A stretch of DNA of 38,184 nucleotides from Denitromonas iodatirespirans (lineage in GTDB: Bacteria; Pseudomonadota; Gammaproteobacteria; Burkholderiales; Rhodocyclaceae): contig NZ_JAEKFT010000037.1 in NCBI RefSeq assembly GCF_018524365.1, positions 1 through 38,184 of the forward strand. Direction: 5' to 3'. How positions within the stretch are numbered: the first letter of the stretch is position 1; each line of letters starts with the position of its first letter. A model generated the notes under the pieces. That model had not been told where the DNA came from and searched no databases. It saw nothing but the letters and a program-made list of their open reading frames with translations. Made by a program: the position numbers and the translations under genes. Shown here one piece after another: positions 10,360 to 19,367 of the stretch.

Positions 10360-11464
10360 ATGGACGCAGAACGCATCAACGACATCGCCGAAGCCCTTGC
10401 GGACCTGAAGCGCCGCGGGGAAGAACTTCGGAGGTATCTTTGACTACGATGAAAAAGCCTCGAAGCTAGAAGAAGTCAACATCGCCCTCGAAGACCCCGA
10501 CGTCTGGAACGACGCCGCGCGCGGTCAGGCGCTGGGCAAGGAAAAGAAGCTGCTCGAAGGCGTGGTGGTCACGCTGCAGCATGTCGCCCAGCAGTCGGGC
10601 GACCTGCTCGACCTGTTCGAGATGGCCGAAGCCGAAGGCGACGACGACACGCTCGAAGCCATCGAGACCGACGCCAAGGCGCTCGAGGCCATCGTCGGCG
10701 GGCTCGAATTCCGCCGCATGTTCTCCGGCCCGATGGACGAGAACGCCTGCTTCATCGACATCCAGGCCGGCGCCGGCGGCACCGAGGCGCAGGACTGGGC
10801 CGGCATGCTCGAGCGCATGTACCTGCGCTACTGCGAGCGCAAGGGCTTCGAGACCGAGCTGCTCGAAGAGTCCGAAGGCGAAGTGGCCGGCATCAAGAGC
10901 GCAACCATCAAGGTCTCGGGCGAGTACGCCTACGGCTTCCTGCGCACCGAAACCGGCGTCCACCGTCTGGTGCGCAAGTCGCCCTTCGACTCCAACGCGC
11001 GTCGCCACACCAGCTTCTGCTCGGTGCAGATCTACCCGGAAATCGACGACTCCATCGAGATCGAGATCAACCCGGCCGATGTGCGCACCGACACCTACCG
11101 CGCCTCGGGCGCCGGCGGCCAGCACATCAACAAGACCGACTCGGCGGTGCGCCTGACGCACAACCCGACCGGCATCGTCGTGCAATGCCAGAACGACCGC
11201 TCGCAGCACCGCAACAAGGACGAAGCCTGGAAGATGCTCAAGGCCAAGCTCTACGAACTGGAGCTGCGCAAGCGCCAGAGCGAAGCGCAGGCGCTCGAAG
11301 ACGCCAAGAGCGACATCGGCTGGGGCCACCAGATCCGTTCCTACGTGCTCGACCAGTCGCGCATCAAGGATCTGCGCACCAGCTACGAAGTCGGCAACAC
11401 CCAGGCCGTGCTCGACGGCGACCTGGACGACTTCATCGAGGCCAGCCTCAAGCAAGGCGTCTGA
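10360..11464 (+). CDS. prfB: Peptide chain release factor 2, programmed +1 frameshift
   Basis: RF2 releases finished proteins at UGA and UAA codons. The coding sequence is in two frames: 10360-10440 (27 codons), then a +1 shift past the T at 10441, then 10442-11464, giving 367 residues. The start ATG has GGAG 9 bp upstream. The shifted product reads RRYL followed by [13 protein letters not shown]. The stop-codon recognition motif SPF is at residues 207-209, and the catalytic GGQ of the peptidyl-transfer loop is at 252-254 in [18 protein letters not shown]. Without the frameshift the product would stop after 27 residues, so the gene is autoregulated and not broken. In many betaproteobacteria lysS follows prfB closely; here a condensin-like operon and a GGDEF gene lie between them. 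Confidence 0.97.
10430..10444 (+). promoter_or_regulatory. prfB programmed frameshift site
   Basis: An internal Shine-Dalgarno GGAGG (10430-10434), the slippery CTT (10438-10440), the stop TGA (10441-10443) and the following C reproduce the conserved GG-GG-TATCTTTGAC signal of bacterial prfB. When RF2 is scarce the ribosome pauses at TGA and slips +1, so RF2 controls its own synthesis. Confidence 0.96.
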
Positions 11465-11470
11465 CCCCAC

Positions 11471-11488
11471 GCACCGCCCCGGCGGTGC
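11471..11488 (+). other. Hairpin between prfB and the kleisin-like gene
   Basis: A perfect 8-bp stem (GCACCGCC at 11471-11478, GGCGGTGC at 11481-11488) has a 2-nt loop (larger in practice). There is no T-run, so it is not a standard intrinsic terminator. It ends 8 bp before the next start codon and covers the place where a ribosome binding site should be; no Shine-Dalgarno is visible. It may restrain translation of the first gene of the condensin-like operon. That role is inference. Confidence 0.5.
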
Positions 11489-11496
11489 GCACACGC

Positions 11497-12774
11497 ATGA
11501 CCGACAACGAACTCGCCGACTACCTCGCGACCGGCTACGCCGTGGACGATGTGCCCGAACTCTCGGCACTGACCGCGGCTCAGCCGGTCATCGACACCTT
11601 CATCTCCCTGTTTCGCGGCAGCGAAGCAGAGGTGCTGCTGCGCGTGCTGGTCTTGCGCGAGGTCGGCCATGATGTCGAGCAGCCGCGCTGGTCGCCCGAC
11701 GCGCTGCGCCGCCGCTTCGCCTATCTCGACCCGGTCAAGCTCGAAACCACGCTCAAGCGCCTGCGCGAGTCCGGCCTCATCAGCTATGCCGACGACGGCC
11801 TCTACCACCTGTCCGACGCCGGCCGCAACGCCGTGGCCGCGCTCGACATGCTGCTGCGCTTCGGCGAATCCGAAGACGCCGAGCTGGGCTTTCTCACCGC
11901 CCAGCTCGCCGGCCTGCAGGCCACCGACAGCATCACCGCCGAGGCGCTCGGGCATCTGCTCGCCAAGCTCAACGACCTTACCTTGCATTTCGAGGAGGCC
12001 ATCGCCTCCGGCTCCGAATTTCGCATCGTCGAGTCCCGCCGCCGGCTGTCGGCCAACGGCAAGTGGCTGGACCGCGGCACCGACATCCTGCGCTCACTGC
12101 TGGCCGACCCCGAAGCCCCCTTCGATGTGGCGCGCATCGCCCAGCGCATCGGCCTGGCACAATCGCGCCTGGCGCGGGTGGACGCCGCCTTCCAGCGCGC
12201 GCTCAACAAGATCGAGACCCAGCGCGTCACCCTCGGCAGCTCCGGCATCTCGTCCAGCGACGTGGCCGCCTGGCTCGGCCAGCAGGGCATGGACGCCCTG
12301 GCCGCGATGGCCGCCGAGGCCATCACCGACACCCCGCAGATGCCGCTGCTGGCCGGCGGTCACGAACTGCTCGACCGCGCCGAAACCGCCCTGTGCGACC
12401 TGCAGCGCGGCGAGGCCGACGACACCCCCCTGCCGGCCGCCGACGACGCCCCCACGGCGCTCGCGCCCGAAGAAGAAGACCTGCGCCTGCTCACCCATTT
12501 CGCCGAGCGGCTCGACGCCATCGATACCGAGCCCGCCACCTTGCACGCCATGGTCGCCGGCGGCGGCTTCGGCCATGCCGCCTACCGCCTGTCGCTGCTC
12601 GCCCTGCTCGCCGACAGCCAGGACAGCGCACCGTCCGACGGCCCCATCGGCGCCTTCATGCGCCTGCCGCTCAAGGTGGACTTCGAACCCACGCTGGTCG
12701 AGGTCGGCCATGACGACATTGCCCGCATCAGCGCCGGCAGCATCCGCCGCCTGAGCCCCCACACCACGGACTGA
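11497..12774 (+). CDS. Kleisin-like subunit of an SMC (MksF/JetA-like) complex
   Basis: I assign this 425-residue protein by context and architecture, not by a signature motif. An N-terminal winged-helix region (about 30-120) includes SEAEVLLRVLVLREVGHDVE, LETTLKRLRESGLISY and DDGLYHLSDAGRNAV. A helical middle follows (about 140-300, for example DLTLHFEEAIASGSEFRIVE and SRRRLSANGKWLDRGTDILR). An acidic Ala/Pro-rich linker (about 305-330) and a C-terminal domain ending in IGAFMRLPLKVDFEPTLVEV complete it. Kleisins of the MukF/MksF type have this winged-helix, helical, linker, C-terminal winged-helix plan and bridge the two SMC heads. The order kleisin, small winged-helix protein, SMC matches mksF-mksE-mksB and jetABC. 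No clear Shine-Dalgarno is seen. It starts 32 bp after prfB and may be co-transcribed with it. Confidence 0.65.
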   Translation: MTDNELADYLATGYAVDDVPELSALTAAQPVIDTFISLFRGSEAEVLLRVLVLREVGHDVEQPRWSPDALRRRFAYLDPVKLETTLKRLRESGLISYADDGLYHLSDAGRNAVAALDMLLRFGESEDAELGFLTAQLAGLQATDSITAEALGHLLAKLNDLTLHFEEAIASGSEFRIVESRRRLSANGKWLDRGTDILRSLLADPEAPFDVARIAQRIGLAQSRLARVDAAFQRALNKIETQRVTLGSSGISSSDVAAWLGQQGMDALAAMAAEAITDTPQMPLLAGGHELLDRAETALCDLQRGEADDTPLPAADDAPTALAPEEEDLRLLTHFAERLDAIDTEPATLHAMVAGGGFGHAAYRLSLLALLADSQDSAPSDGPIGAFMRLPLKVDFEPTLVEVGHDDIARISAGSIRRLSPHTTD

Positions 12775-12781
12775 CGCGCCC

Positions 12782-13510
12782 ATGGAACACGACATCCGCG
12801 CCCTCACCGCGCGCCTCATCGCCCAGCGCTGGCTGCCGCGCAAGGACCCGATGGTGCGCCGCGCGCTCATCGACGAAACCTTCCGCCACGAGATCGACCA
12901 GCGCTTGGCCAGCGTCGGCCTGCGCCTGCTCGACAACCCCTACGCCGCCCATGTGGCCGTCGGCCTGACGCCCGACGCGCTCGAACCCACCTTCGGCAGC
13001 GGCCGCGAATACCAGGCCAGCAACATGGGCCTCACGCGTGACGAGATCGCCCTGCTCGTCGTGCTGTGGGCGCTGATCATCCTGCCCAAGCGCGAGCGCC
13101 AGGTGACCCGCCAGAACCTCGCCAACGAAGGCCAGGAAGAGTTGTTCGCTGCCGAGCAGCCGGTCGCCCATGGCGCCGAGGTCTCGGCCGGCGTGTCCGA
13201 AGCCTCGCTCATCGCCGACTTCGGCCCGCGCCTGGGCGGCAAGACCAAGGTGCGCAACTTCATGCTCGGCCGCCTCGCCCGCCTCGGCTTCATCGAGCGG
13301 CGCAACGGCATGCTGCTCGAAGGCCCGCTGCTCGACGTGGCGCTCGACTACCGCCTGATGGCCGACCGCATCATCCACGGCACACTCGCCGGCGTGCTCT
13401 CCGACGCCGGCCACCCCGTGCCCACCGCCGACGCCTTTACCCTGGCCGGCGCCGACGACGAAGACGAATTCGACGGCGACATGCCCGAACCCGGCGCGGA
13501 GGATTTCTGA
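12782..13510 (+). CDS. Kite-like (MksE/JetB-like) winged-helix subunit
   Basis: The 242-residue protein starts 7 bp after the kleisin-like gene and resembles the small MksE/JetB (kite) subunits that bind the kleisin. It has an N-terminal helical region (about 1-60, with LIAQRWLPRKDPMVRRALID). A predicted helix-turn segment follows (about 80-107, GLTRDEIALLVVLWALIILP). The C-terminal winged helix (about 150-190) contains GGKTKVRNFMLGRLARLGFI and RRNGMLLEGPLLDVALDY. A very acidic tail of some 20 residues (from about 222) closes it. Such acidic tails often compete for basic DNA- or partner-binding surfaces, which is inference here. Its stop codon overlaps the next start (TGATG), so translation of the small exported protein is coupled to it. 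Confidence 0.65.
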   Translation: MEHDIRALTARLIAQRWLPRKDPMVRRALIDETFRHEIDQRLASVGLRLLDNPYAAHVAVGLTPDALEPTFGSGREYQASNMGLTRDEIALLVVLWALIILPKRERQVTRQNLANEGQEELFAAEQPVAHGAEVSAGVSEASLIADFGPRLGGKTKVRNFMLGRLARLGFIERRNGMLLEGPLLDVALDYRLMADRIIHGTLAGVLSDAGHPVPTADAFTLAGADDEDEFDGDMPEPGAEDF

Positions 13511-13782
13511 TGGCACCTCGAAGCCCGCTGTGCGTCGCCCTGCTGCTCGCCCTCGCCACCACGCCGGCGTTCGCCCTCAGCGGCGCACGTGCCGGCGGCG
13601 ACTATCGCCAGACGCCGACAAGCTCGGATCGCAACTGCGCCCGCTATGAAAGCGCCATCGCGCAGCTCGACGCCCAGCTCGCCCGCGCGCCGAGCGGTAA
13701 TCGCGCCAACCAGCTTGCCGAGCGCAAGCGACACTACCAACAACGCATGCGCGAGGGCGGTTGCGGCCGCAGCCTGCGCTGA
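13510..13782 (+). CDS. Small exported protein inside the SMC operon
   Basis: This 90-residue protein is not recognised. Residues 1-22 form a clear signal peptide with an AFA cleavage signal. The mature part has about 68 residues and is probably a helical hairpin: NCARYESAIAQLDAQLARAP, then a short turn, then NQLAERKRHYQQRMREGGCG. One Cys starts the first helix and one ends the second, placed to form a disulfide. Its start overlaps the stop of the kite-like gene, and the SMC gene follows 15 bp later, so it is truly inside the operon. A periplasmic protein has no obvious place in a cytoplasmic condensin. It may be a passenger gene, or a partner that links the complex to the envelope. The reading frame is well supported by the signal peptide and by the spacing. 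Confidence 0.7.
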   Translation: MAPRSPLCVALLLALATTPAFALSGARAGGDYRQTPTSSDRNCARYESAIAQLDAQLARAPSGNRANQLAERKRHYQQRMREGGCGRSLR

Positions 13783-13797
13783 GCCGGCACAGAACAC

Positions 13798-16590
13798 ATG
13801 TTCCATATCAAACAGATCGAACTGGTCCACTGGGACTTCTGGCGCCGCTTCACGCTGCCGCTGGACGCCCAGATCATCACCATCGTCGGCCCCAACGGCT
13901 CGGGCAAGACCACCCTGCTCGACGCCCTGCGCACACTCTTCGCACTGCGCTGCTCGGGCAAGCGCGACTTCCGCCGCTATGTGCGCCGCGCCAACCGCAG
14001 CCATGCCTGGATCCGCGCCACCGTCGCCAACCTGCCCGGCGCCACCGGGCGTCGGCCGTTCTTCCCCTGCCTTGACGACACCGTCACCCTGGCCTGCCGC
14101 ATCCGCCGCGCCGGCGGCGAGTGGACACGCGATTACGCCATCATCGACGGCGACGTCGAGATCGAGGCGCTCGACACCGGCAACGACTGGATCGGCCTGC
14201 GCGACTACCAGAGCCGGCTCGCCGCCGGCGGCCTGACCCCGGCCATCGCCAAAGTGCTGGCGCTGGAGCAAGGCGACACCGACAAACTCTGCGAATACGC
14301 CCCCAAGGCACTGCTCGAACTGGTGTTCGACGTCTTCGGCGACAAGGAAGTGCTCGACAACTACGATGTCGCGCGCGAAGAGCAGCAAAACGCCGAACGC
14401 GAAATCGACAGCCTGTCGATCGACCTCGACCGCCTGCGCGCCCAGGCCGAAGCCAAGCGGCTCGAAGCCGACCGCTTCCTGGAATGGAAGCAGATCACCG
14501 ACGAGCTCTCCGCCCTCGATGCCGAGATCGTGCCGCGCCTCGAAGCCTTCGAGCTGCGCCGCGACATCCGCGCCGAACGCAGCCAGCTGCGCGCCCAGGA
14601 CGGCGAGCGCCGCGAGCGCCAGCAGGGGCTGGTGGCCGCGCGCCAGCGCATAAATCAGGTCGAGGCCGAGCGCCAGGCCGAAGAAGCCGCCCGCGCCAAG
14701 GCGCGCAGCGAATTCCTCGCCGTCGAGCAGCGCCATCTCGGCGCCCACGACCGTGTGCGCGATCTCGAACGCGTGCTCACCGAACGCAACGCCCTGCGCG
14801 AGCTGCTGGCCCGCGAAGAGGGTCAGGACGCCGTCGCCATCGAAGCCGAGCACGAAGCGGTCGAAACCGAGCTGACCGCCCTGCGCGCCCAGGAACGCGA
14901 GCTGATCGCCCGTTTCGAAGCGGCCAAGGACGCCCTCGCCCATGCCCACGAGCGCAGCAGCCCGCCCTCCGATCCCGAAGTACGCACCTTCCGCGCCCAG
15001 CTCGCCGAGGCCGGCATCGGCCACCGTGCGCTGTCTGAGGCCATCGAGATCACCGATGCCGCCTGGCAAGGCGCCATCGAAGCGGTGCTGCGCCCCTACC
15101 GCCATGTGCTGCTGCTCGAACGCGCCGCCGACCGCCACCAGGCCTGGGCGTTGGGCGAGCGCGAGCGCTTCCGCCACTTCATCGTCGCCGACTGCGAAAA
15201 CGCCCCGCCCGCCCAGCGCGACACGCTGGCCGAGGTGGTGCGCTTTGCCGGCCCGGTGCCGCGCTGGCTGGCCGATTTGCTGAACCGCATCACCCGTGTC
15301 GAGGATGCCGCCGCCGGCAGCGCGCTGCCGCGCGACACCGAATGGATCACCCGCGACGCCTACCACCGCGAGCGCCGCGGCGCGCGCCACCTGGGCCGCC
15401 CGCGCGAATTCCACTTCGGCGAGCTGGCGCGTCAGGCGCGCATCGATGCGCTCTCGGCCGAGGTGCGCGAGCTGGACAAGGCGCTGAGTCCGCTGCGCCC
15501 GCAAATGGACGTGCTGCGCGACCGCCTCGCCACCCTGCGCAGCCAGCTGCTCGGCCTGAGCGCCGCACCGCAGCTGGCGGCCCGCGCCCAGGCCTTTGCC
15601 GAGGCTGAGGCCGAGCTGCCGGTCGCGCGAAAGGCACTCACGGAGGCGATTGCCGAGCGCACCGAACTGCAGGCCACGCTCGACGGCATCGGCGAACGGC
15701 TCAACGGCATCCAGATCGAACTCGACCGCCGCCGCCGCGAGCTGGCCACGCACGAGCAACGCCTCGGCCTGCTCGACAGCGAAGACCGTCCGCGCCGCCA
15801 GTCCCAGGCCCAGCGCGTGCAGCGCCTGCGCCGTCTGCGCCGCGGCATGCCGGCCGCCTGGCGCCGCGGCGAAGGCAACGAGGCGCTGATCGAACGCTAT
15901 GGCGATGCGCGCAGCGCCCGTGCCGAAGCCGAGCGCTTGCGCCAACGGCTCGACCAGGGCGACTGGGTGCAGGACGCCGCCGTGCTCACCCTGCGCGACC
16001 GCCTGCTCGACGAGCTCGGCCGCCGCGAGCGCGACTACGCGACACGCCAGGGCTACTGCGCCACCGCCCGCCGCCACACCGACGAGGCGCGCGCCGCCTA
16101 CATCGGCAAGCTGCGCGCCACGGTGCGCCAGTACAGCCGCAACCTCAAGGCGCTGGGCGAGCTGGCGCATGTGGAGGTGGACTGCCCGGTGCCGCATCTG
16201 GACAACGACGATGCGGCGCTCAACCGCTCGGGGCTGGAGGTGCGCTTCGACTTCGACCGCAAGGGCGCGGTCGGCCTCAACGATGGCGAAGCCTCTGGCG
16301 GCCAGCAGGTGATGAAGTCGCTGATCCTACTGATTGCGCTGTTGATGGACGAGACCCGCCCGGGCGGCTTCGTCTTCATCGACGAGCCGTTTGCGCATCT
16401 GGACGTGGCCAACATCGACCGGGTCGGCGCCTTCCTGCGTGCGACACGGGCGCAATACCTGATCACCACGCCGGTCACGCACAACGCCAACGTCTTCGCG
16501 CCGGCGCAGCTCACCCTGGTCACGCGCAAGAAACCGCCGGCCGAGGAATGGGCACCGCCGATCGGCGTGCTACAGCGCCAGCGGGACTGA
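13798..16590 (+). CDS. SMC-type ATPase with hinge (MksB/JetC-like)
   Basis: The 930-residue protein has full SMC architecture. The N-terminal head has Walker A GPNGSGKTT at residues 31-39 and a Q-loop region ALEQGDTDKL near 155. A first coiled coil (about 190-385) is very rich in Arg, Glu, Ala and Gln. A hinge-like globular domain (about 392-530) includes AWQGAIEAVLRPYRHVLLLE. A second coiled coil (about 545-770) returns to the C-terminal head with the signature SGGQQVMKSLILLIALLMDE at 833-852. Walker B with D-loop, FVFIDEPFAHLD, is at 858-869. The coiled-coil arms are short compared with MukB or canonical SMC, as in MksB. Both nucleotide-binding halves are intact, so the ATPase should be active. 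Canonical Smc with ScpA/ScpB and Rad50/SbcC are less likely, because SbcC has a zinc hook (CxxC) instead of a hinge. No nuclease gene of the JetD type follows; the next gene is convergent. Confidence 0.75.
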   Translation: MFHIKQIELVHWDFWRRFTLPLDAQIITIVGPNGSGKTTLLDALRTLFALRCSGKRDFRRYVRRANRSHAWIRATVANLPGATGRRPFFPCLDDTVTLACRIRRAGGEWTRDYAIIDGDVEIEALDTGNDWIGLRDYQSRLAAGGLTPAIAKVLALEQGDTDKLCEYAPKALLELVFDVFGDKEVLDNYDVAREEQQNAEREIDSLSIDLDRLRAQAEAKRLEADRFLEWKQITDELSALDAEIVPRLEAFELRRDIRAERSQLRAQDGERRERQQGLVAARQRINQVEAERQAEEAARAKARSEFLAVEQRHLGAHDRVRDLERVLTERNALRELLAREEGQDAVAIEAEHEAVETELTALRAQERELIARFEAAKDALAHAHERSSPPSDPEVRTFRAQLAEAGIGHRALSEAIEITDAAWQGAIEAVLRPYRHVLLLERAADRHQAWALGERERFRHFIVADCENAPPAQRDTLAEVVRFAGPVPRWLADLLNRITRVEDAAAGSALPRDTEWITRDAYHRERRGARHLGRPREFHFGELARQARIDALSAEVRELDKALSPLRPQMDVLRDRLATLRSQLLGLSAAPQLAARAQAFAEAEAELPVARKALTEAIAERTELQATLDGIGERLNGIQIELDRRRRELATHEQRLGLLDSEDRPRRQSQAQRVQRLRRLRRGMPAAWRRGEGNEALIERYGDARSARAEAERLRQRLDQGDWVQDAAVLTLRDRLLDELGRRERDYATRQGYCATARRHTDEARAAYIGKLRATVRQYSRNLKALGELAHVEVDCPVPHLDNDDAALNRSGLEVRFDFDRKGAVGLNDGEASGGQQVMKSLILLIALLMDETRPGGFVFIDEPFAHLDVANIDRVGAFLRATRAQYLITTPVTHNANVFAPAQLTLVTRKKPPAEEWAPPIGVLQRQRD

Positions 16591-16610
16591 CCGCCGCGCG
16601 CCGCCGAGAC

Positions 16611-17678
16611 TCAGAAGTACTGGTCGGCGTCCTGCTGGGCGCTGCTGGTCGCCTCGGTGCTGGCGAGCTCGCCGGCGGCCACCAGGTCGTCATAGGCCCA
16701 GGTGCAGTTGCGGCCGTGCTCTTTGCCGTAGTAGAGCGCCGAATCGGCGCGCCCGAGCAGTTCGGCGGGCGTCAGGCGGTCATCGACCTGGGCAAAGCCG
16801 ATCGAGCAGGTGACCGTGCCGACCTGCGGAAAATCATGTTGTTCGACTTCGGTGCGAAAACGCTCGAAGATGCCGGCCACCGTGTCGGCGGGCACGTTGC
16901 GCAGCATCACCACGAACTCTTCACCCCCGAAGCGGAACAGCTTGTCCGAACTGCGGAACGATCCGCGCATGCAATCGGCCAGACGGATCAGCACCTCGTC
17001 GCCGAACAGATGGCCCCAGGTGTCGTTGATGTTCTTGAAATGGTCGATGTCGACGATGCCCAGCCAGGACGGCTGGGGCTGCTCGGCGTTTTCACGGCGC
17101 TCGCCGTCTTGCCGGCGGGCGCGCTCGGCCACCGCGATCAACTGGTCGAACTGTTCGTCGAAAGTCTTGCGGTTGAGCAGGCCGGTCAGGGTGTCGAGGT
17201 TCGCATAGTCCCAGTTGGCCATCAGGCGTTCGAAACAATGGATGTAGGTGCGCATGCCGTCGATGGTCGCCGGTGCCACCGCGCTGTCGGTCTGCACATC
17301 GAGAATCCATCGGAGGCGCCCGGCATGCATGATCTGGAAGGCCAGCCGCCAGCCATGATCCACGCGCAGCCGGCTGAAGCTCGCGCCCCGGTCGGTCGCG
17401 CCCGCCAGGAACGGATCGTCCGCCAGGGGCGTCATCTCGTCGCCGGCATCGTCCCAATCGCCGCTCACGCCCTCGGCGCAGCTGCCGCCGATGCGCTTGA
17501 ACCGCCGACGGGCAACCGCGCTGTCGAGCACATGCAAATCGCAACGCTGCGCCCGCAGTGCGCGTTGCGCACCAACACAGAATGCCCGCAACAGCGCCTC
17601 GCGCACATGCAGCGAGGTCAGATGCTGCGCGGCCTTGAGCAGCGCCAAGAGAGTGTCACCAGTCCGAGTCCGCATCAT
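16611..17678 (-). CDS. Diguanylate cyclase with N-terminal GAF-like domain
   Basis: The 355-residue product makes the second messenger cyclic di-GMP from two GTP. The N-terminal half (about 1-165) looks like a GAF-type sensor fold and has no membrane segment, so the enzyme is probably cytoplasmic. The GGDEF domain starts at LDTLTGLLNRKTFDEQFDQL (about 180). It contains the metal-binding IVDIDHFKNINDTWGHLFGD, the active-site GGEEF at 251-255, and a product-inhibition I-site RSSD at 242-245, exactly five residues before GGEEF. The enzyme is therefore expected to be active and subject to feedback by c-di-GMP. The start ATG at 17678 has GGAAAGG just upstream; a frame 20 codons longer lacks one. 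It converges on the SMC gene with only 20 bp between and is divergent from lysS. Confidence 0.92.
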   Translation of the reverse strand: MMRTRTGDTLLALLKAAQHLTSLHVREALLRAFCVGAQRALRAQRCDLHVLDSAVARRRFKRIGGSCAEGVSGDWDDAGDEMTPLADDPFLAGATDRGASFSRLRVDHGWRLAFQIMHAGRLRWILDVQTDSAVAPATIDGMRTYIHCFERLMANWDYANLDTLTGLLNRKTFDEQFDQLIAVAERARRQDGERRENAEQPQPSWLGIVDIDHFKNINDTWGHLFGDEVLIRLADCMRGSFRSSDKLFRFGGEEFVVMLRNVPADTVAGIFERFRTEVEQHDFPQVGTVTCSIGFAQVDDRLTPAELLGRADSALYYGKEHGRNCTWAYDDLVAAGELASTEATSSAQQDADQYF

Positions 17679-17867
17679 CGCCTTTCCATCAGTAGGTCTA
17701 TTACGGCAGCAGATCGGCAACTTTAGGCCGTCCGTCATAGACGGAACGACATGACAGGCGCGGCCACGAGCGACTTATCGCATCGGTTATGCGAAAATCG
17801 CCGTTTTTCTGCGTCGGCACCTGTCAAGGCGCCGCCGCCGATTGACCACCATTCAAACGAGTCGCAC

Positions 17868-19367
17868 ATGTCAGAACAGAACCCCTCGCCTTCCGCCGAC
17901 GAAAACCATCTCATCGCCGAACGCCGCGAAAAGCTGCGGGCATGGCGCGAGAGCGGGCGTGCCTACCCGAACGATTTCTCGCGCGAGAACACCGCCGGCA
18001 AGCTGGACGAAGCCTACGGCGAGAAAACCCGCGAAGCGCTCGAAGAAACCCCGGTCGAAGTGCGCGTGGCCGGCCGGGTGATGCTCAAGCGGGTGATGGG
18101 CAAGGCCAGCTTCGCCACCATCCAGGACCTGTCGGGCCGCATCCAGCTGTATGTGAGCAACCAGGGCGTGGGTGAAGAGGTGCACGGCGACTTCAAGCAC
18201 TGGGACATCGGCGACATCGTCGGCGCGGTGGGCACGCTGTTCAAGACCAAGACCGGCGAGCTGACGGTCAACTGCACCGAGATCCGCCTGCTGTCGAAGA
18301 ACTTGCGCCCGCTGCCGGAGAAGTTCCACGGCCTGACCGACCAGGAAACCAAGTACCGCCAGCGCTACCTCGATCTGATCATGAACGAGCAGTCGCGCTT
18401 CACCTTCGTGGCGCGCAGCCGCATGGTGCAGTCGATCCGCAACTACATGATGGCGCACGGCTTCCTCGAGGTCGAAACGCCGATGATGCACCCCATCCCA
18501 GGTGGCGCCTCGGCCAAGCCCTTCACCACCCACCACAACGCGCTCGACATGGAGCTGTTCCTGCGCATCGCGCCGGAGCTCTACCTCAAGCGGCTGGTGG
18601 TGGGCGGCTTCGAGAAGGTGTTCGAGGTCAACCGCAACTTCCGCAACGAAGGCCTCAGCCCGCGCCACAACCCCGAATTCACCATGATGGAGTTCTACGA
18701 GGCCTACGCGAACTACCAGAGCCTGATGAACTTCACCGAAGGCCTCATCCGCCAGGCCGCCCGCGAGGCGCTCGGCACCGAGACCTTCCAGTACCAGGGC
18801 CGCGAGCTCGACCTGTCCAAGCCCTTCCACCGGCTGACCATCGTCGAGGCGATCCGCAAGTACCACCCGGGCTTCACCGTCGAGCAACTGGCCGACGCCG
18901 AATGGCTCAAGGAAAAGATCGTCGCCTTCGGCGAGAGCGTCAAACCGGGCGGCCTGGGCAGCCTGCAGCTGCAGCTGTTCGAAGCCTGCACCGAGGCCGA
19001 TCTGTGGGAGCCGACCTTCATCATCGACTACCCGGTCGAAGTCAGCCCGCTGGCGCGCGCCTCCGACAGCAACCCGGAAATCACCGAGCGCTTCGAGCTG
19101 TTCATCGTCGGTCGCGAGATCGCCAACGGCTTCTCCGAGCTGAACGACCCGGAAGACCAGGCGGCGCGCTTCCGCGCCCAGGTCGAAGCCAAGGAGGCCG
19201 GCGACGACGAGGCCATGTTCTACGATGCCGACTACATCCGCGCGCTCGAGTTCGGCCTGCCGCCGACCGGTGGTTGCGGCATCGGCATCGACCGTCTGGT
19301 GATGCTGCTGACCGACAGCCCGGCGATCCGCGACGTGATCCTCTTCCCGCAGATGCGGCCGGAGTAA
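17868..19367 (+). CDS. lysS: Lysyl-tRNA synthetase, class II
   Basis: This enzyme charges tRNA-Lys. The 499-residue length is typical. The N-terminal OB-fold anticodon-binding domain covers about 60-165 (for example [20 protein letters not shown]). The catalytic domain has motif 1 around [20 protein letters not shown], motif 2 in [20 protein letters not shown] and motif 3 in [20 protein letters not shown]. The start ATG at 17868 ([19 protein letters not shown]) matches the family better than the 39-codon extension upstream. The Shine-Dalgarno is weak (ACGAG). No terminator is seen after it, and the next gene starts 12 bp on, so the two may be co-transcribed. Confidence 0.97.

Follow-up and report, generated by a model that had tools for sequence, protein, structure and literature searches.

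A kleisin-kite-SMC operon without a detected nuclease in Denitromonas iodatirespirans, and Wadjet-like relatives that carry a JetD-like gene

The window analyzed here, a 38,184-nucleotide stretch of Denitromonas iodatirespirans DNA (contig NZ_JAEKFT010000037.1), contains at positions 11497–16590 a plus-strand operon for a kleisin, a kite protein, and an SMC (structural maintenance of chromosomes) ATPase. An earlier note, made from the letters of this DNA alone, had proposed this composition and location, and we found the open reading frames (ORFs) where it had placed them. The kleisin gene (MukF/JetA-like; 11497–12774, 425 amino acids [aa]) is followed by the kite gene (JetB/MukE-like; 12782–13510, 242 aa) and the SMC gene (13798–16590, 930 aa). 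As the note had read, the next gene is convergent; it lies outside the complex on the minus strand (16611–17738) and encodes a diguanylate cyclase-like GGDEF protein (Pfam GGDEF, 6.7e-37). Only 20 bp separate the SMC stop codon from this gene, leaving no room for a fourth gene there. The operon thus shares the order kleisin-kite-SMC-(nuclease) with Wadjet type I (JetABCD) and differs from it in that no nuclease gene is present in the window.

The SMC protein retains the Walker A, signature, and Walker B motifs of an ABC (ATP-binding cassette)/SMC head as well as a hinge, as had been noted from sequence. Walker A spans residues 31–38, the hinge approximately 385–600, the signature EASGGQQ 831–837, and the Walker B motif FIDE 860–863. 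Walker A residues G31 and N33–T39, signature residues ASGGQQ (832–837), Walker B residues D862–E863, and His895 are invariant in the 53 rows of the SMC alignment (A3; 58 rows were available, and near-copies and the SMC of locus L081 are among those left out). An apparent 2555-aa SMC at L081 proved to be an artefact of masked bases. The best PDB profile match of the window SMC is JetC (8dk2, E = 1.9e-10), its N-head profile is best matched by a type I JetC group, and its hinge profile matches such a group first (E = 1e-14), canonical Smc next (E = 2.9e-10), and MukB hardly at all (E = 0.0096). Here we take "type I" to denote a JetA matching Pfam PF18982 or a JetC beside JetD, and "type II" to denote DUF3375. 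PADLOC JetC matches of the window protein (P0004) rest mostly on the coiled coil. The protein is indeed short, as the note had remarked: its 930 aa compare with 1115–1223 aa for the ORFs of sampled JetC (roughly 200 aa longer), 1170–1208 aa for Smc, and 1486 aa for the MukBEF SMC. A canonical Smc was also considered and rejected, since the protein scores 110.8 bits against TIGR02168 (cut-off 567.35) and the window genome carries a separate canonical Smc and ScpA on other contigs.

Structure prediction left standing both folds that had been assigned to the partner proteins. The predicted kite, a tandem winged helix modeled with modest confidence, matches JetB and MukE in fold, and its sequence profile weakly matches JetB. 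The AlphaFold model of the kleisin (mean predicted local distance difference test score, 68) comprises an N-terminal winged helix, a helical bundle, a low-confidence linker, and a strand-rich C-terminal end. Its top two Foldseek matches in the PDB are chain C of the MukBEF entry 9gm7 (440 aa, E = 7e-4, template modeling [TM] score 0.21) and chain E of the JetABCD entry 8q72 (466 aa, E = 3.8e-3, TM score 0.17), which from their lengths we take to be MukF and JetA, respectively. Both matches span nearly the full length despite these TM scores, and the modeled kleisin fold moderately resembles MukF/JetA. In VIA-align, MukF came below generic MarR-type winged helices, the scores all lying within about 1 Z of one another, and this comparison therefore adds little to the Foldseek result. 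Unlike the kite, the kleisin could not be related to Wadjet by sequence: profile comparison (hhalign) yielded no significant match to JetA, MukF, or others, although this null result says little because two known JetA groups match each other only weakly (E = 0.0013) and JetA and MukF do not match at all (E = 0.2). A DUF3375 kleisin was excluded, with no Pfam match in the window kleisin or the window genome and E = 0.25 in hhalign against the DUF3375 kleisin group; the window genome likewise gave no Pfam JetA match. PDB profile searches from the kleisin and kite alignments (A1, 54 of 59 available rows; A2, 56 of 60; near-copies and a truncated kleisin dropped) returned no relevant match.

A nuclease-free kleisin-kite-SMC set beside Smc-ScpAB is also the arrangement of MksBEF, for example in P. 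aeruginosa, a likeness that we draw from the literature and not from sequence; in contrast to MksBEF, some members of the window family still carry a JetD-like gene. The family might nevertheless be among the "several families of MksBEF" that have been noticed before, and it might be an orthologue of that in P. aeruginosa, in which case only its nuclease history would be new. We consider this rather improbable. The window genome fits such an assignment, having both ScpA and canonical Smc, whereas the window kleisin and kite reach the cut-off of no Pfam or NCBIfam model and match PADLOC models weakly or not at all, and a kite profile found the family in only 6 of 398 genomes of the phylum (own genome included, two of the six outside the order); neither of these two points is decisive.

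To place the family, we built a tree of SMC heads from 45 rows and 375 columns, comprising 21 of the 61 family rows and 24 references. The tree omits one Smc that is a near-copy (L176), two JetC (L155 and L187) in which the pattern missed the signature, and two stretches (L188 and L199) that yielded no SMC. The family heads form one clade (support 100/99), and JetC and MukB together form another branch (96/86). Joining the family with type I subgroup a alone was rejected (p = 0.007), while joining it with all type I JetC (p = 0.11), with MukB (p = 0.114), or with Smc (p = 0.21) was in each case not rejected. In this tree the family is a separate branch, which may nonetheless belong with all type I JetC, with MukB, or with Smc, within a reference set that has neither type III Wadjet nor Pseudomonas MksB. 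A JetB3 profile, run for type III references, matched nothing in the 398 genomes nor in controls. A literature search found no description of the family, most subscription papers being outside its reach.

No JetD was detected in the window genome with either Pfam JetD_C or the family's own JetD-like profile, all 34 candidates having been scored with the latter. The earlier reading that the group has no JetD therefore stands for the window locus and its genome and fails for the group as a whole. The first sign of a nuclease came from three genomes, in which Pfam JetD_C matched weakly immediately downstream of the SMC gene. Directly after the SMC, 9 of 59 loci encode a 394–412-aa protein (truncated in one by the end of its contig), as does one genome from outside the order; of the 61 loci in the tree, 10 altogether have a divergent JetD-like Toprim gene behind the SMC. 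The other 51 rows are labeled "no nuclease," a label that includes four loci whose sequence behind the SMC does not allow a judgment: L038, L039, and L040, whose contigs end 283–492 bp after the SMC, and L081, which is masked. In Cognatazoarcus halotolerans, the JetD-like gene lies within the prfB-lysS interval, the same interval that holds the window operon. All eight JetD-like proteins scanned match PADLOC JetD1 profiles (best, 2.3e-22), a likeness to Wadjet type I, and at E values up to 1 five of the eight match Pfam DUF2399 and four match JetD_C. The Toprim Glu and first Asp are invariant in the nine JetD-like proteins compared. In the protein of L070 (5756–6979), His replaces the second Toprim Asp, and judging from this substitution its nuclease is possibly inactive, in a lineage that otherwise keeps the nuclease.

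At the genome level, the JetD-like profile matched in 9 of 49 carrier genomes, each with a linked copy (split across two contigs in G131), and in none of the scored candidates of the other 40, the window genome included. G046 and G192 have weaker second JetD matches in separate clusters (L154 and L155, respectively), which contain a longer JetC together with genes that we take from their position and length to be JetA and JetB; both genomes also carry the armed family operon. Pfam JetD_C matched in 13 of the 49 genomes, and strong unlinked matches occur in G032, G056, G077, G219, G249, and G269. A tblastn search for nuclease remnants, using nine JetD-like proteins against the window and loci L031–L090, detected no convincing match beyond the loci that bear JetD (best stray match, E = 0.024).

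The three genes recur well beyond the window. Among 300 genomes of the order, a kite query detected the family in 46, the window genome included, and the kleisin-kite-SMC order is held in every locus that shows all three genes; because the same order recurs in so many genomes, the triplet is not a chance assembly. Named relatives belong to Denitromonas, Azoarcus, Cognatazoarcus, Methyloversatilis, Zoogloea, and metagenome-assembled genomes, with best-segment SMC identities from 97 to 65%. The suggestion that the group is specific to this lineage did not hold, as the family is spread over 12 family codes of the order and reaches two genomes outside it. Nor do homologues always sit at the site seen in the window, where part of prfB (10562–11464, plus strand) ends 32 bp before the kleisin gene and lysS (17751–19367, plus strand) follows the GGDEF gene; the names of these two ORFs are our assignments by sight, with no family search run on either. 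Of the 14 named loci, 13 have a prfB homologue upstream, the remaining contig beginning inside the kleisin gene, and 7 have a lysS homologue downstream, some contigs ending early. Among the 45 other genomes of the order, prfB and lysS flank the triplet only in L059, so that prfB-lysS is one site among several. Elsewhere, the triplet follows rplU-rpmA-obgE-like genes (an obgE-like cluster is present in 25 of 60 loci) or, in three loci, lptE-holA-proA-like genes, names that we likewise assigned by sight. The surroundings at these sites look like housekeeping ones and vary from lineage to lineage. The gap between prfB and lysS is 9 bp in E. coli K-12, and the triplet was therefore probably inserted between them.

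These observations bear on whether the window operon still serves defense, in that the complex would extrude incoming plasmids and either silence them by compaction or pass them to an unlinked nuclease other than JetD. Such a role is suggested by the relation to Wadjet type I through JetD, kite, and SMC profiles and by the patchy distribution of the family. It is made unlikely, in our judgment, by the housekeeping surroundings, by the lack of a JetD homologue in the window genome (strong unlinked JetD_C matches being confined to the six other carriers listed above), and by the fact that no widely conserved alternative fourth gene was seen, a 117-aa ORF that is MmcQ-like by sight (cluster c12) following in the stretches of only 9 of 60 loci.

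Several other genes accompany the triplet. In the window, a 90-aa ORF with a start that resembles a signal peptide by sight (13510–13782, plus strand) lies between kite and SMC, overlapping the kite stop codon within an operon of cytoplasmic proteins; it had gone unmentioned in the earlier note and has no Pfam match. Among loci L031–L090, homologues were found only in L032, L033, and L035 (phmmer, E 1e-3 and >25 bits). Since 3 of the 14 named loci have it and it was found nowhere in L046–L090, it is probably a passenger and not a subunit. Several relatives likewise have a GGDEF gene between SMC and lysS; its strand is minus in L031–L035 and plus in L037 and L042. A conserved 416–423-aa protein (cluster c19), with a membrane-anchor-like start by sight and no Pfam match in the member scanned, is encoded between prfB and the kleisin gene in L037–L041 and L043. 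Extra genes occur inside the operon between kite and SMC in L047, L054, and L085 and between kleisin and kite in L058, L087, L060, L066, and L089; those inserted include a GNAT-like gene (c38, also in L058) and a HAD-like gene (L087), both read by sight, and one for a 222-aa protein (c46), of which the single member scanned has no Pfam match above cut-off. A sigma-70 consensus scan of 11300–16800 found no promoter-like site and was uninformative.

The history of the nuclease was examined with a JetD tree of 24 rows, comprising nine of the ten family rows (one is cut by a contig end) and 15 others; L190 and L195, which lack the Toprim motif, were excluded. All nine JetD-like proteins group in a single clade (100/99), with the four type I JetD on the same side of a 100/99 split. 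For the nine loci, neither the JetD tree nor the core tree is rejected by the data of the other (approximately unbiased test, p = 0.059 and 0.11), whereas both data sets reject 20 of 20 random trees. This single clade and the compatibility of the two trees make co-inheritance of the nuclease with many losses our preferred reading: the nuclease probably comes and goes and is mostly lost, with losses inferred to outnumber gains. A different course of events, which we regard as possible although somewhat unlikely, is that an ancestrally nuclease-free condensin gained the nuclease several times. Three observations speak for repeated gain: on the core tree the nuclease requires at least 6 changes if these are free, as opposed to 14 losses if it was gained once (Dollo); the JetD-like proteins of family code f27 sit on a long branch; and of the four genomes sampled from genus code g81, one lacks the gene. 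Repeated gain is harder to reconcile with a single, core-compatible clade whose genes occupy the same place behind the SMC. It is also disfavored by a linked case on two Variovorax plasmids, where a 5′-truncated family SMC, nearest among those compared to the SMCs of the nuclease-less loci L072 and L153, lies beside a JetD-like gene whose product is 36% identical to that of L052. Gains through exchange between such operons are nonetheless conceivable. On plasmid 2 of Variovorax sp. WDL1 (L205, 2946–10679), the truncated SMC also adjoins an IS1071 transposase gene, and the JetD-like gene is followed by xseA and xseB. A 42-kb plasmid of Diaphorobacter sp. HDW4A (NZ_CP049912.1, 1048–1722) has a partial JetD-like match with 42% identity to the L052 protein. 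None of 72,556 plasmid records has a place that spans 80% of the SMC.

Co-inheritance with many losses is in line with one review, which suggests that nuclease-free MksBEF arose by loss of JetD (PMC10586767). The broader proposition, that the family is an undescribed deep Wadjet-like branch that has shed JetD many times while its motor stayed constrained and was passed on at housekeeping sites, is one to which we attach somewhat less than even probability.

Does the core that remains without the nuclease still function? Ratios of nonsynonymous to synonymous substitution rates (dN/dS) for kleisin, kite, and SMC are 0.12, 0.08, and 0.06 between the window and L031 and 0.10, 0.06, and 0.07 between the window and L032, with higher values for the pairs window-L034 (0.41, 0.24, and 0.22) and L055-L086 (0.30, 0.29, and 0.25). 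The nuclease-less core is under purifying selection and is not decaying. Mean core conservation in nuclease-bearing rows (7 of the 10 were used) is 0.634, 0.688, and 0.644 for kleisin, kite, and SMC, about equal to the 0.646, 0.704, and 0.653 (standard deviations 0.015, 0.014, and 0.012) of distance-matched nuclease-less sets. No stretches conserved only in the presence of the nuclease were found beyond matched controls; kleisin near residue 331 and kite near residue 118 are less conserved in nuclease-bearing rows, slightly below the 5th percentile of controls. The pattern of an N-terminal JetD-contact motif of JetB, named in a review, was found in 0 of 16 sampled JetB, and no claim here rests on this motif. 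A decaying Wadjet remnant without function, which the missing nuclease might suggest, is thus extremely improbable: the catalytic residues are invariant, conservation is similar to that of nuclease-bearing relatives, and the dN/dS values of 0.06–0.12 against the two nearest relatives tested contradict it.

With the nuclease not detected and the motor under purifying selection, the window operon most likely encodes a cleavage-free loop extruder of the chromosome. The housekeeping neighborhoods of the family and the plasmid-record result given above also speak for this reading. That it would form a second complex is suggested by a core that is not decaying, by the presence of Smc and ScpA in the same genome, and by ScpA in 48 of the 49 carrier genomes searched. 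We therefore consider it somewhat more probable than even that the operon encodes a divergent Wadjet/Mks-type loop extruder, nuclease-less here, that acts as an auxiliary condensin beside Smc-ScpAB. By analogy with JetABC and MukBEF, an SMC dimer, its heads bridged by the MukF/JetA-like kleisin carrying JetB/MukE-like kites, would hydrolyze ATP, entrap DNA, and extrude loops. Relatives with a JetD-like gene would presumably cleave small circular DNA as Wadjet does, whereas in the window lineage extrusion would proceed free of cleavage, most likely on the chromosome, as the work of a second condensin. Both kinds of activity have precedents in the literature, which describes MksBEFG as a plasmid defense system (PMC10123090) and MksB as mediating long-range contacts of the Borrelia chromosome (PMC10406323). 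A chromosome-organizing role of the window complex is plausible.

Together, these results suggest an anti-plasmid weapon that has turned into, or is related to, a chromosome-organizing machine. If the family is indeed a deep Wadjet-like branch that repeatedly shed its nuclease, it would offer a natural gradation that begins with an anti-plasmid weapon and ends with a chromosome condensin, both armed and disarmed orthologues being present in one order and even at the same prfB-lysS site. Because armed and disarmed relatives coexist, some at the same site, the switch between defense and chromosome organization would be directly testable by single-gene deletion in betaproteobacteria.

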